64,000 nucleotides of DNA, from contig JAJDBJ010000020.1 in NCBI GenBank assembly GCA_029261395.1, positions 1 to 64,000 on the forward strand. Direction: 5' to 3'. The position numbers were made by a program, and so were the translations under genes. The notes below the pieces were generated by a model. That model was given only the letters and a program-made list of their open reading frames with translations. It made no database searches and was not told the DNA's origin. The DNA comes from Nitrospinaceae bacterium. GTDB lineage: Bacteria; Nitrospinota; Nitrospinia; Nitrospinales; Nitrospinaceae. Positions 20,630-46,515 of this stretch are shown here, in pieces. How positions within the stretch are numbered: the first letter of the stretch is position 1; every line of letters begins with the position of its first letter.

Positions 20630-21934
20630 TTATTTTTCCACTCTAATCAAAACAGTTTTCCCAAACACTTCTTCCATATGATTGATTTCTTTCAAAGCCG
20701 CCTGAATATTTTTTTCTTTGGCATTATGGCTCATCATCACCAGCGGCACGCCCTCACGATTATCATCCTTGATCCTCTGGATCACCGACTCAATACTGAT
20801 GTCATGGTTACCAAGAATTCCTGAAATCTGGGACAGCACCCCGGGTTTATCCAGCACCCAGAACCGCAGATAATATTCGCCTTCAATCTGTGAAATGTCT
20901 TTTAGAGGAATATTCCGAATACTGGATGTTTGAAAGGATTGGGGTGGCACGCGGTCTTGAGCGCCCGAAATCATATTGCGGGCAATTTCGACGACATCCG
21001 CCACCACCGCACTTCCGGTTGGCAATGCACCTGCGCCATGACCCACCAGAATATTTTCTTCCATTAAATCATCACAAACCATGATGGCGTTCAATACACC
21101 ATTGACGTTGGCCATCGGCTTGTCCTCGGGAATCATCGCCGGATGCACACGAATATCGATGGCTTTCCCATCAAATTTGGAAATCGCCAACAGTTTAATG
21201 CGATAACCAAACTCGTGAGCGCATTTAATGTCCAACGAGGAGATACTGGAAATGCCCTGTACGTAAATATCGTCGAGGCTCACCGGAGTGCCGTATGCCA
21301 ACCGGGTCAATACGGCAATCTTGTGGGCGGAGTCGATCCCTTCGATATCAAAGGTGGGATCTGCTTCTGCGTATCCCTTATCCTGCGCTTCCTTCAATAC
21401 GGTATCGAAATCATGGTCGCCGTCTGACATTTTACTCAAAATGTAATTGGCGGTGCCGTTCATGATGCCTTCGATTGCCTGAATTTGATTGGCAACAAAC
21501 GCCTCTTTGATAGAACGGATAATGGGAATGGCTCCACCCACGGAAGCTTCAAACCCAACGCCGACATTATTTTTCCCCGCGGCGGCAAATACCTCATCGC
21601 CATGAACTGCCAACAAAGCTTTGTTGGCAGTGACCACATGCTTTTTGTTTTCGATCGCCTTGAGGATGAAAGAACGTGCCGGCTCATAGCCGCCCATCAG
21701 CTCGACCACAATATCGATATCCGGGTGATCCAGCACCTCATTGACATCGGTGGTCAGCAGACTGGGATCGACTTTCACTCCGCGATCCGTGGTGATATCG
21801 AGATCGGCGATTTTGACGATGTCTACAGACGCTCCCAGCCGGTCTTTAATTATATTTCGATTGTCCTGAAGGATTTTGACCACCCCGCAACCGATGGTGC
21901 CAAACCCGATCAAGCCTATTTTAATCGTTTTCAT
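20630..21934 (-). CDS. hom: Homoserine dehydrogenase
   Basis: A 434-residue NAD(P)-dependent enzyme reducing aspartate semialdehyde to homoserine for threonine and methionine synthesis. The N-terminal Rossmann GFGTIGCGVV, central catalytic region (GIMNGTANYILSKM, then YAEADPTFDIEGIDSAHK) and C-terminal ACT regulatory domain (LRFWVLDKPGVLSQISGILG, about residues 352-430) are all there. The ACT domain suggests threonine feedback. It lies 17 bp after the aminotransferase gene and 2 bp before thrC, forming a three-gene unit on the minus strand. Confidence 0.96.
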   Translation of the reverse strand: MKTIKIGLIGFGTIGCGVVKILQDNRNIIKDRLGASVDIVKIADLDITTDRGVKVDPSLLTTDVNEVLDHPDIDIVVELMGGYEPARSFILKAIENKKHVVTANKALLAVHGDEVFAAAGKNNVGVGFEASVGGAIPIIRSIKEAFVANQIQAIEGIMNGTANYILSKMSDGDHDFDTVLKEAQDKGYAEADPTFDIEGIDSAHKIAVLTRLAYGTPVSLDDIYVQGISSISSLDIKCAHEFGYRIKLLAISKFDGKAIDIRVHPAMIPEDKPMANVNGVLNAIMVCDDLMEENILVGHGAGALPTGSAVVADVVEIARNMISGAQDRVPPQSFQTSSIRNIPLKDISQIEGEYYLRFWVLDKPGVLSQISGILGNHDISIESVIQRIKDDNREGVPLVMMSHNAKEKNIQAALKEINHMEEVFGKTVLIRVEK

Positions 21935-24461: not shown

Positions 24462-24884
24462 TTAACCGCAGGTTACGTTCATGTTAACCGTACCTGTGTT
24501 GGTGATGCGAACTTCACCACTAATATCCCCTAAGGAGTCGCCGCGGCTGAAGTTATTCTGGTGACGCAATACAACTTTGTCGCGTCCCATGCTGTGCATG
24601 TTCTGAATGCCTACTTTACCGGCACCCGCCGCACCACCTGGAAAATTATTGTGATCTTTCGGTCCTAAAGAAATAGGAATCGTCGTCGCGTTGGAAGATT
24701 TCCAGATCACCGCATTAGCATTAGTGCGATCACCCTCGGAAGAAGTCCCAGCAGACTCCAATGTGATTTGGCTTGCATTGTTGCATGAAATCTTCTGGCC
24801 CGGCTTCAAGGTTCCTGCATAGGCGGAAGCGGCAAAACAAAGAGCAACAACACTAAGGATAGTAAAGAGCGCTAATTTTCTCAT
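24462..24884 (-). CDS. Small exported protein of unknown function
   Basis: I do not recognise a family. The 140-residue product begins with a clear Sec signal peptide (residues 1-23, ending SAYAG). The mature part is about 117 residues, rich in Asn, Gly, Ser and Thr. It has only two cysteines, one near the new N-terminus (KISCNN) and one as the penultimate residue (NVTCG). This suggests one disulfide joining both ends of a small beta-type domain, or a closed ring. The start has GGAGG five to six bases upstream, a promoter-like sequence lies close by, and a strong terminator follows. That makes it a well-expressed single gene by appearance. Confidence 0.8.
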   Translation of the reverse strand: MRKLALFTILSVVALCFAASAYAGTLKPGQKISCNNASQITLESAGTSSEGDRTNANAVIWKSSNATTIPISLGPKDHNNFPGGAAGAGKVGIQNMHSMGRDKVVLRHQNNFSRGDSLGDISGEVRITNTGTVNMNVTCG

Positions 24885-25362
24885 GGTTTTCCTCCGTTAC
24901 CCAAAATTATTAAAGATTAAAACTCCCCTGAAATCTTTGTTCAATGACCCCTGGTAACCACCAAGTCACGAACACAAACAAACATTAAACCTGAATTCTT
25001 ATATTCAAATTGTTTTCTCAACCGGTAATAATTTCAAATAGAATCCAAACCCAGCTGGAACTCATTGGAAAGCTTGTAATAACCGATAATCCAAACTAAT
25101 TCTTTTGGCTGTCAGTATACTTACGGCGAGAAACAAGTCAACTGTTTTTTAGGACTTTTCCTATAAGAAGTATAACGTATTTCCTATACCACGAGAGCCC
25201 TACCTCCTACCCCTTGTTTCAACTATAATATTGATTTTATTAAATTTAGGCGATTAACCTTAATAAATATAAGTTTTTATTTCAAAAACGATAACTTATA
25301 CTGAGTTCAACCCAAATCACTATGATTTCTTCCAGGCACTCTCACGTAAAATACTGGCGATT
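24885..25362. other. AT-rich divergent intergenic region
   Basis: 478 bp. The left part carries the promoter of the exported-protein gene (24916-24944). The right part, near 25269-25299, contains a nested inverted repeat: outer arms ATAAGT/ACTTAT and an inner GTTTTT-atttc-AAAAAC. A TATACT box (25297-25302) overlaps its end. This could be an operator or promoter for the TVP38 gene, but no good -35 is visible. No ORF with a ribosome binding site was found. Confidence 0.5.
24916..24944 (-). promoter_or_regulatory. Putative promoter of the exported-protein gene
   Basis: Minus strand: TTGAAC (24939-24944), a 17-bp spacer and TTTAAT (24916-24921), about 30 nt upstream of the ATG at 24884. Confidence 0.45.
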
Positions 25363-32906: not shown

Positions 32907-33365
32907 ATGCACTCAGAAAGCTTCCCCATGCAAAAAAATAATATCAGAAAAATTCTATTGGGATTCATTCTTCTCCTCATGACTGTCTCCGCATATAGCT
33001 TAATCAAGTTATTGAATAAGGGAACTTTACCCATAGAGACCCTGAAAACGATGGACAAGAATATCGATATTGAAATCGAAAACTTTAAGGTGAAGCATGA
33101 GGGGTTGGGCGATAGAAGCTGGGAAATTAAGGCAAAAGATGCAAAAGTAAAAAACGAGGAGAATACCATTATTCTGACAGACGTGAATGTGACCCTGAAC
33201 GCCGAAGAAAACCGGAAATCCACCATTTCCGCTGATGCCGGCACCATAGATAGCGAAACCAAAGACATCCACTTAGAGGGAAATGTCAAATTCAAAGCGG
33301 ATGCCAACAATTTTTTCGGTCAGTTCCAAAAGCAGAGCGAAGAACCAATCGAACCCGACAAATAA
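32907..33365 (+). CDS. lptC: LPS export system protein LptC
   Basis: A 152-residue bitopic protein: one N-terminal transmembrane helix (about residues 14-35) and a periplasmic LptC/OstA-like beta-jellyroll domain (DIEIENFKVKHEGLGDRSWEIKAKDA..., and later HLEGNVKFKA). It bridges the LptB2FG transporter and periplasmic LptA. The ATG at 32907 gives the frame shown; an ATG at 32928 (MQKNNIRK) is equally plausible, as neither has a clear ribosome binding site. It is immediately upstream of lptA and lptB. Confidence 0.9.
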   Translation: MHSESFPMQKNNIRKILLGFILLLMTVSAYSLIKLLNKGTLPIETLKTMDKNIDIEIENFKVKHEGLGDRSWEIKAKDAKVKNEENTIILTDVNVTLNAEENRKSTISADAGTIDSETKDIHLEGNVKFKADANNFFGQFQKQSEEPIEPDK

Positions 33366-33381
33366 GTAAAGGATACGGCCC

Positions 33382-33948
33382 TTGCGAACTTTCAAGACCC
33401 TAATCATATTCCTCGTCTGCCTTTCTCTTTTGGGAATGAATCCGGGAAACACCTTTTCCGCAAAATCCAAGGAATCCTTAAAGAAGGAGCAGGAAAAGAG
33501 CCCGATAGAAATTCAATCGGATAAATTACGGTCTGAAAATGAGGGCAAAAAATTCATTTTTACTGGAAATGTGTTGAGCACCTGGGGAGATTTGGAGATA
33601 AAGTCCGATATTCTGGAGGTTTATGCCAATCCAGACAGCAAAACAGACCGGAAAAAAGCGACCGATGATGTCGGCCAGGCGAGTCAGGATCTGGAAAAAA
33701 TTATTGCCATCGGCAATGTGGATATCAAGAAGGGAGACCGGCGAGCGAAGGGTGACCGCGCATATTATGACAATAAAAAACAGATCATTATAGTGACAGG
33801 AGAACCCAATGCCACTGCTTGGGAAGGGAAAAATATCATCCGGGGCAAGAAAATGACATTTGTACTGGAGAAGGACTTATTCAAGGTAGAGGGACGGGTC
33901 AACCTGGTACTTAACCCAAAGAGCCCTCCTCCAAAAAAGAAAAAATAA
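33382..33948 (+). CDS. lptA: LPS transport periplasmic protein LptA
   Basis: A 188-residue exported OstA-like protein: signal peptide about residues 1-27, then [24 protein letters not shown], the usual LptA opening, and [19 protein letters not shown] near the middle. It forms the periplasmic bridge that carries LPS. The start is TTG 33382 with AAAGGA about 10 nt upstream. It ends with a Pro/Lys tail. It lies 16 bp after lptC and 49 bp before lptB. Confidence 0.93.
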
Positions 33949-44144: not shown

Positions 44145-45212
44145 TCAAGTGAAATTGTAGGCAAAACATCCACTGGTACAGCGCACCATATAATGCGGAC
44201 AACTTTTGCAGGGTTCTTTCGCTTGCGTGTCCTCAAAAACATGGCTGAGAAATTTGGTGTGCATTTTCTTCACAGCGATGTCGTTGACTTCCTTAAAATC
44301 CTGGACATTCCCCAATTTGAGGCCATGAAACGGGAAACAATTGAAGCAGTCGCCTTTGGGGTCAACGTCCATCGGGCTGTCATCGGCGCAACCCAGGTAT
44401 AAATCTTTATCCTTCCATTCCGTTATATTCGGAACCGGCTGGTTGGCGTGATAAAAAAACCGCTCCACGAGAGGAAACTCCTCCTCATTAATGCTATCCA
44501 ACAGACAGGGCGGAAACGAACAGTCAAACCGGAATGTCAACTGCGGAAACTCTTTAAGAATATCGATCATCTTGCGTCCCATCCTGGGGTAATCCTTGAT
44601 CGGTAACGTGACGTTCTCCTCCTCCCCGACAATCGGGAAAGCAGGGCTGACCCGGATTTTGTAACTCTGCCCTTCCGGTAAACCCAAGTCTTGATAAATG
44701 CCGTCGATTTCGCGACACTGCGTTTCAAGATCCTGATCCACCGAATACAAATTGAGGCTGAACATGAGGCTGTAGCCGCTTTCTCCAAGAATCGCCTCCG
44801 CCACCTCGCGGCAACGTTGATGATTCTTCTCGCTGATATTCTCCTTGGTCTGCCAGTTCAGGAGCACCGAAAACTGAATGTTGCGCTCGATACTGCCCCC
44901 CGGCCCGACCGTCTTCAACAACAAGTCCAGAGTCTTTTCCGGCATCAACCCATTGGTGAAGACTCCGAGATAAGTGAACGGCTGCATGGTCTTCAAAGTG
45001 CTGGAAAGGATATCGTTGAATTGAGGATGCAGGGTCGGCTCCCCGCCCATGAAGTTGATGAGAGTGACATTTTTAACCCGTGGCAACATTTCATCGGTGA
45101 AAAATTCGTAATCCATGGATTTCCCTGGGGTCTTCACGTTCTCTCCCATGTATTCATCGGCGAAGCAGTAATTACACTTCAAATTACAATAACTATTCAA
45201 AATTATGTTCAT
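44145..45212 (-). CDS. Radical SAM protein with SPASM-like C-terminus
   Basis: From ATG 45212 (AAGGGA about 8 nt upstream) the product is 355 residues. The radical SAM cluster is C9-x3-C13-x2-C16 (CNLKCNYC), followed by the GGEPTLH motif. The C-terminus is cysteine-rich: GC near the start of the region, GDCFNC, then CKSC-x6-C-x3-C, suited to one or two auxiliary Fe-S clusters as in SPASM proteins. Relatives modify peptides or act in anaerobic sulfatase-type maturation. I see no peptide substrate gene next to it. A TTG ten codons upstream is an alternative start but lacks a ribosome binding site. The 442-bp upstream gap contains several inverted repeats. Confidence 0.88.
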   Translation of the reverse strand: MNIILNSYCNLKCNYCFADEYMGENVKTPGKSMDYEFFTDEMLPRVKNVTLINFMGGEPTLHPQFNDILSSTLKTMQPFTYLGVFTNGLMPEKTLDLLLKTVGPGGSIERNIQFSVLLNWQTKENISEKNHQRCREVAEAILGESGYSLMFSLNLYSVDQDLETQCREIDGIYQDLGLPEGQSYKIRVSPAFPIVGEEENVTLPIKDYPRMGRKMIDILKEFPQLTFRFDCSFPPCLLDSINEEEFPLVERFFYHANQPVPNITEWKDKDLYLGCADDSPMDVDPKGDCFNCFPFHGLKLGNVQDFKEVNDIAVKKMHTKFLSHVFEDTQAKEPCKSCPHYMVRCTSGCFAYNFT

Positions 45213-45335
45213 TTCAGGGATCCCTTTTCGTGATCGGGTCAATCATACAAAGATTGGAATACACAGCGATTGGACTCGATAGTCCTTATAGGAGCAAGTC
45301 TTGGCCGTCACATGAAAAGGAAATCAGTAGCGGAA

Positions 45336-45367: not shown

Positions 45368-45422
45368 TAAGTATACGTTGCACTATATAGGAATATTCCT
45401 ATATAGTGTCGGAATATACTTA
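45368..45422. repeat. 28-bp perfect palindrome with outer inverted arms
   Basis: The core 45381-45408 is a perfect palindrome, with left arm CACTATATAGGAAT and right arm its exact reverse complement, no spacer. TAAGTATA (45368-45375) and TATACTTA (45415-45422) flank it as a second inverted repeat at almost equal distance (5 and 6 bases). It could be a large operator, a cruciform or a repeat-element remnant. Confidence 0.9.
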
Positions 45423-45654
45423 CATATTTCTCGTTTTCAAGGATTGGGACCTGGGCCCTACTCCTCCCTACCAAAGTAGAATAGTTGCTTCCCCAGCACG
45501 CCAGAATACACCGCATCAGGCGGACAAACAGAGGGATAACAACCTGAAACCCGTTGATTCTTATTACCTTTTTGCTATTCAGACTCCCAATTGAATAAAA
45601 CCTTAGCCAGGCTGGACATGCCTATAGGCGTGACCACCAAGTTTTGGAGGAATC

Positions 45655-46515
45655 ATGCTGGCCTTTGCCAAAGACATCACCCAAAACCAACCAAACCACC
45701 GCGATGAGGATAAAAATCCCGAATTGAAGAACTACATGAACTATCAACGGAATCTGGACCACACCCGCATCGTCTATTACTCCCTGAAACACGCCAAAAA
45801 CGAACTTCAGGAAATCATTCAACAAAAAAGAAAAAGCGGTAAAAGCGCGGAAGCTTATCTTGAGCAGGCATTTCCGTTAGCACATCACTTCGCGGATGAT
45901 AAAACCCTCACGTTGATGCTGAAAAAACTGGTCGGCGGACATAATGAAACCAATCAGTGGTACCGGATGAACGACTATTACCACGCATTGGTTTTTGATT
46001 GCATGGACCGATTCATCAAATATTACAATCAAATGGTACGCGACTCCGCGGAAGAAGCCGGTGAATTCACCTTTGCGGGTGGGGGAGAAATCGATTTTGG
46101 CGATTGGGTCTATTTATACTTTTCACATTTAGATTTTCATATCGGCACCCCACTGGATCAATCTCAATATCCTTTCGCCAAGCGCAACAAAGTCATTGAA
46201 GAAGCGATCGAAAAGAAAACACTCAACGGGGAGACGCTCGAAGAAGCGCTGAAATCTCTCAAGGAGGAGTACAATATCGACGACATTGCCATCAAGGTAC
46301 TTCTTCATAAAACCATCAACCATGACGATCTGGAGTTATTTCACACGTCGATTAAAACTCCGATCTATGAATTGCTGACGCATCGGCAGAAGGGAAGCTG
46401 GGATGCTCTGGAAGGCGAAACCCTGATGGACCAGGCCTATAATTTCGGATCGCAATTGAAGATATGGACCTGGGGCAAGAAAAAGAAGAAAGTAAAAGTG
46501 GAAGAATCGTCCTAA
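45655..46515 (+). CDS. Uncharacterised protein, second member of the 30061 family
   Basis: A 286-residue soluble protein without signal peptide or membrane helix, preceded by GGAGG five bases before the ATG. Residues 73-116 align without gaps to residues 68-111 of the protein at 30061. The shared block is W102-x2-M105-N106-x-Y108-x5-F-D115-C116, plus DF at 147-148 and an aromatic helix. It carries a charged helical N-terminal half and a C-terminal domain of about 110 residues (KTLNGETLEEALKSLKEEYNID..., ending in a Lys run) not found in its relative. Function is unknown. It converges with the Rieske gene, 7 bp between stops. Confidence 0.85.
   Translation: MLAFAKDITQNQPNHRDEDKNPELKNYMNYQRNLDHTRIVYYSLKHAKNELQEIIQQKRKSGKSAEAYLEQAFPLAHHFADDKTLTLMLKKLVGGHNETNQWYRMNDYYHALVFDCMDRFIKYYNQMVRDSAEEAGEFTFAGGGEIDFGDWVYLYFSHLDFHIGTPLDQSQYPFAKRNKVIEEAIEKKTLNGETLEEALKSLKEEYNIDDIAIKVLLHKTINHDDLELFHTSIKTPIYELLTHRQKGSWDALEGETLMDQAYNFGSQLKIWTWGKKKKKVKVEESS

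Follow-up and report, generated by a model that had tools for sequence, protein, structure and literature searches.

The GerE helix-turn-helix dimer of E. coli NarL reads inverted half-sites, TACYYMT heptamers in 7-2-7 order, and the motif of the staphylococcal regulator NreC is TAGGG-N4-CCCTA. NreC is a NarL-family regulator that binds a GC-rich palindrome before nitrate and nitrite genes (PMC8139620). In enterobacteria, the RcsAB consensus is TaAGaatatTCcta (PMC4325325), and the crystal structure of RcsB with DNA shows K180 and S184 in contact with the half-site TTAGGAA (PMC5829831).

The palindrome described here, found in a window of 64,000 nucleotides of Nitrospinaceae DNA, shares features with all of these operators. 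Its core, TAGGAATATTCCTA, is a 14-bp dyad like the RcsAB/RcsB box and agrees with the RcsAB consensus at 13 of 14 positions; the half-site TAGGAA seen with RcsB is also present in the palindrome, and one relative (G030) carries TAAGAATATTCCTA exactly. The core departs from the RcsAB-box consensus at position 3, where the conserved A is replaced by G. The one linked regulator scanned (the G053 orthologue) scored 71 bits against RcsB, with a cut-off of 235, and by this measure is not an RcsB orthologue. The NreC operator has the same layout as the TAGGA-N4-TCCTA dyad, but its half-site is TAGGG rather than TAGGA and it belongs to a different phylum. The NarL sites likewise present inverted half-sites to a GerE helix-turn-helix dimer, whereas their TACYYMT heptamers stand in 7-2-7 order and the TAGGA half-sites have 4-5 bases between them. 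These likenesses fit a model in which the palindrome is probably, though not securely, a site where a response regulator of the NarL/FixJ family binds as a dimer; this operator would have an RcsB-like TAGGAA half-site, belong to a Nitrospinota-wide set and overlap a core promoter.

The palindrome and its neighboring genes

The palindrome sits between two divergent genes, as follows.

45381..45408, no strand: full-extent predicted operator, perfect 28-bp palindrome
45388..45401, no strand: core operator TAGGAATATTCCTA, fits TAGGA-N4-TCCTA
44145..45212, minus strand: radical-SAM/SPASM gene from a conserved ATG near 45212, the probable principal target
45655..46515, plus strand: 286-aa protein gene, possible second target

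The perfect symmetry reported in the initial annotation is borne out, since CACTATATAGGAATATTCCTATATAGTG has 14-bp arms and no spacer. Its view that such a palindrome is unlikely to arise by chance also holds, with expectations of 2.3e-4 per 64 kb and 0.011 per 2.94-Mb genome. A second perfect palindrome of 26 bp (ACTGCCAACAAAGCTTTGTTGGCAGT, 21606-21631) nonetheless shares the window; it lies in a homoserine-dehydrogenase-like coding frame (20630-21934, minus strand) and is probably a coincidence. Rarity by itself is therefore weak proof for the 28-bp palindrome, and conservation decides. The near-symmetric outer arms that had also been described, TAAGTATA at 45368-45375 and TATACTTA at 45415-45422, are both present here and are not seen in aligned relatives, for which reason they were rejected as part of the conserved operator. 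Most likely their presence is incidental, or else they form part of a −10 element on the minus strand that is specific to this genome.

The ATG of the radical-SAM gene was placed near 45212 by the conserved start MNIILNSYCNLKCNYC, while the listed open reading frame begins at 45242 with TTG. The 286-aa protein has no Pfam family and no meaningful NCBIfam or PDB sequence match, and its AlphaFold model (mean pLDDT 74) gave no Foldseek match below E = 2. All 61 Nitrospinota genomes searched contain its family, each with several paralogues, and no evident site was seen in the upstream regions of these paralogues. Within 45425-45650, on the way from the operator to the 286-aa gene, about 165 bp are common to G007 and absent from G001, G003, G004 and G005.

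Conservation of the dyad

The initial annotation had proposed looking for copies of the element elsewhere in the genome and in relatives. No repeats were found in the source genome, a 2.94-Mb Nitrospinota MAG whose nearest named relatives are Nitrospinaceae and other Nitrospinota MAGs; the 28-mer occurs there once. Close relatives do keep one conserved copy at the gene pair. Five same-genus genomes (G001, G003, G004, G005 and G007) carry the core dyad in the orthologous intergenic region, in the form TTGCAYTATATARGA plus a right half that resembles TCCTATA, and genomes of other families (G024, G026 and G047) also keep the element. At the orthologous place the core operator is exact in the source genome (G000), G001, G003, G005 and G026, and has one or two mismatches in G007 and G024. 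All four zero-mismatch matches to TATAGGANNNNTCCTATA among 61 genomes are this locus, and in many g4 genomes the site is weak or lost. Across relatives the TAGGA-N4-TCCTA dyad is kept, whereas the extent of the symmetry and its perfection are not.

The position of the element points to its target. In a profile scan, its distance to the radical-SAM start codon is near-constant at 133-172 bp among genomes that score above shuffled sequence and in which this start could be placed, while anything from 84 to 256 bp separates it from the 286-aa gene. Furthermore, a radical-SAM gene of G017 that lacks the 286-aa neighbor has an exact site 146 bp ahead of it. Together these make the radical-SAM gene the probable principal target and the 286-aa gene a possible second one. 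An initial idea, that of a promoter directed towards the 286-aa gene only, was revised once the near-constant radical-SAM distance emerged.

A lineage-wide set of TAGGA dyads

Exact TAGGA-N4/5-TCCTA sites number two each in G000, G001 and G005, and in all three they stand before the same two orthologous genes. The other site of the source genome and its predicted target are as follows.

25150..25163, minus strand: the one further exact TAGGA-N4/5-TCCTA site in the source genome, upstream of TTGACT-N16-TATACT
24462..24884, minus strand: small secreted protein gene, predicted target of this second site

The small secreted-protein family is conserved in 55 of 61 relatives. Its promoter (25116-25215) contains a row of three TAGGA sites together with TTGACT-N16-GTAAG-TATACT, an arrangement kept in six same-genus genomes, in which the three sites lie upstream of the −35 element.

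Spacers of 0-10 bases were scanned in two sets of 30 regions, one taken from upstream of the secreted-protein family and the other from the DNA that follows a NarL-type regulator gene, and no more than one mismatch was allowed. Spacer 4 was found in 13/30 and spacer 5 in 8/30 of the former, and in 8/30 and 17/30 of the latter, respectively; every other spacer was found in 0-2 regions. In promoter regions the inverted half-sites thus stand a fixed, short distance apart, as expected of NarL/FixJ-family operators. A 3-base-spacer pattern gave matches near chance only.

Across 61 genomes, 20 of the 75 exact N4 sites listed lie near module genes, where 0.07 would be expected by area; near here means no more than 300 bp ahead of a secreted-protein, 286-aa or radical-SAM gene, or the same distance past a regulator gene. 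The probability stays near 2e-23 even when a tenfold excess is granted to promoter regions, a value that is too small because related genomes are not independent. The reversed control pattern gave one module-gene case, judged by eye, among about 75 listed matches. Overall motif counts in the 61 genomes are not above those of this control, which places the information in position. Exact matches inside coding frames, such as that in an FtsX-like gene of G007, are taken as chance. Other recurrent neighbors of the sites are a Tll0287-like protein identified by Pfam (G028, G030, G044, G049 and G052) and, with names read from sequence, a TPR protein with its downstream gene (G012, G023 and G024) and SulP-type transporters (G008 and G052). 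The best reading of these patterns is that the palindrome belongs to a Nitrospinota-wide set of predicted TAGGA-N4/5-TCCTA operators.

Linked regulators and nxrA

The sites are linked to genes for regulators with receiver and GerE domains, lying 43-236 bp downstream of them in seven genomes; the source genome has an N5 variant at contig C77. A kinase gene comes first there, followed by the NarL-type regulator gene, the N5 site with its one mismatch, the gene of a small secreted protein and that of a secreted-protein paralogue. A conserved module of a GAF/HisKA-type kinase, a NarL-type regulator, an operator and two small secreted proteins without a Pfam family was seen (L203 2014-5383). The C77 regulator, encoded at 33108-33737 of that contig, has Response_reg and GerE domains, and its nearest PDB matches are VraR and NarL, with RcsB also among the matches.

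Site-linked regulators mostly carry the helix KT[IV]S[TA]HR. No site follows the genes of the two aligned paralogues in which Asn replaces Lys, while the linked regulator L211 has Thr at this position. The nxrA-linked regulator of the source genome has Lys, yet only a degenerate site lies nearby. The source genome encodes several NarL-type regulators, and a NarL/RcsB-like regulator is the best candidate binder of the TAGGA dyad.

G026 has an exact site in the interval that separates a NarL-type regulator gene from nxrA. By sequence, the source-genome counterpart of this nxrA encodes subunit A of nitrite oxidoreductase (E = 1.5e-75 to 7b04), and its intergenic region with the regulator gene holds a degenerate site, not an exact one. 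A NarL-type regulator gene stands directly upstream of nxrA in both G026 and the source genome, at contig C9 of the latter (L208 1-1548; L206 1-1567), where the regulator gene occupies 929-1546.

Promoter-like elements and a model of regulation

Three promoter-like elements were recognized around the operator.

45378..45407, plus strand: sigma-70-like elements TTGCAC, 18 bp, TATAGT towards the 286-aa gene, a consensus match and candidate promoter
45382..45387, minus strand: −10-like TATAGT that adjoins the operator downstream and faces the radical-SAM gene
45413..45440, minus strand: promoter-like TTGAAA, 16 bp, TATATT with GTAAG before the −10

The plus-strand elements are TTGCAT, 16 bp, TATAAT in G001, G003, G004 and G005, and the operator occupies the spacer between TTGCAY and TATAAT/TATAGT. 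Most relatives in which the operator element persists read TATAAT or TATAGT at the minus-strand −10-like position, and no good −35 is seen for this −10. The element at 45413..45440 contains the right outer arm, is not conserved in relatives and is of a type found once against 1.5 expected in shuffles; the operator lies just downstream of this genome-specific TTGAAA-N16-TATATT. All core promoter-like elements recognized at the locus overlap the operator or are so placed that RNA polymerase could be blocked.

In the proposed mechanism, a dimer of a NarL/FixJ-family regulator would bind the two half-sites of the palindrome, presumably in a phosphorylation-dependent manner. The bound regulator would block RNA polymerase at the radical-SAM/SPASM promoter, and possibly at the 286-aa promoter, most likely resulting in repression. 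At the secreted-protein promoter, the row of TAGGA sites upstream of the −35 occupies the usual position for activation and would probably act in that sense. This difference in placement favors repression at the palindrome and activation at the secreted-protein promoter, with the sign read from promoter geometry.

Alternative explanations

The same NarL-type operator could instead be an activator site at the palindrome, with a start site further downstream. A conserved TTATAT, seen by eye about 37 bp from the operator center in G001, G003, G004 and G005, has the spacing of the secreted-protein promoter −10 and would agree with this, as would a minus-strand −10 that has no good −35. No element at this spacing is found in the source genome or G007, however, and each recognized core promoter-like element overlaps the operator, which leaves activation here somewhat unlikely. 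Unlikelier still is that the site serves an unrelated dimeric factor, for example of the Rrf2, MarR or MerR type, which shares the TAGGA half-site and has its targets near NarL-type genes by accident. Spacers of 4 and 5 both occur, and a dyad in the promoter spacer is also typical of MerR-type promoters, both of which would suit such a factor. The MerR version is a misfit, as MerR spacers are 19-20 bp and those here are 16-18 bp; moreover, sites recur just downstream of diverse NarL-type regulator genes, and the half-site equals that of RcsB.

Explanations by structure or mobility fare far worse. A cruciform is physically possible, as the initial annotation had suggested, and a transcript hairpin would be stable (−24.7 kcal/mol, z −5.5), but relatives keep the TAGGA-N4-TCCTA dyad instead of long or perfect symmetry. 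An intrinsic terminator was rejected because no GC-rich hairpin with a T-tract downstream of a gene was found and the flanking genes diverge. An RNA element was rejected as well, with no Rfam family near its gathering score and only a sub-threshold mir-297 match, and G007 aligns through the site at 72% identity. A structural element of any of these kinds, or an assembly fold-back, is thus very improbable. A dispersed or mobile repeat (MITE or REP), another early suggestion, has length and symmetry in its favor; the single copy of the 28-mer, where several would be expected, excludes it for practical purposes. Viral contigs lack the exact core, which argues further against mobility and led to rejection of a viral origin. 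Neither a dispersed repeat nor a terminator nor an assembly artefact accounts for the palindrome. The reading as an operator, also raised at the outset, is by comparison strongly supported by one conserved copy before the gene pair and a lineage-wide dyad family in promoters.

Implications

Nitrospinota are major nitrite oxidizers of the ocean, and a literature search on how they control transcription turned up no more than a genome paper on Nitrospira. Such operators are already well known; the novelty lies in a set that spans the lineage and in its connection to a gene of nitrite oxidation. A tentative extension, given somewhat less than an even chance, is a Nitrospinota two-component regulon in which RcsB-like NarL-family regulators, acting through TAGGA-N4/5-TCCTA, would link nxrA with radical-SAM, small secreted and Tll0287-type sensor proteins. 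If true, this would be the first cis-regulatory code for Nitrospinota nitrite oxidizers. A defined candidate operator with named neighbor genes, nxrA among them, makes this control directly testable. The site also suggests that RcsB-like regulators use the TAGGA(A) half-site code well beyond the enterobacteria.
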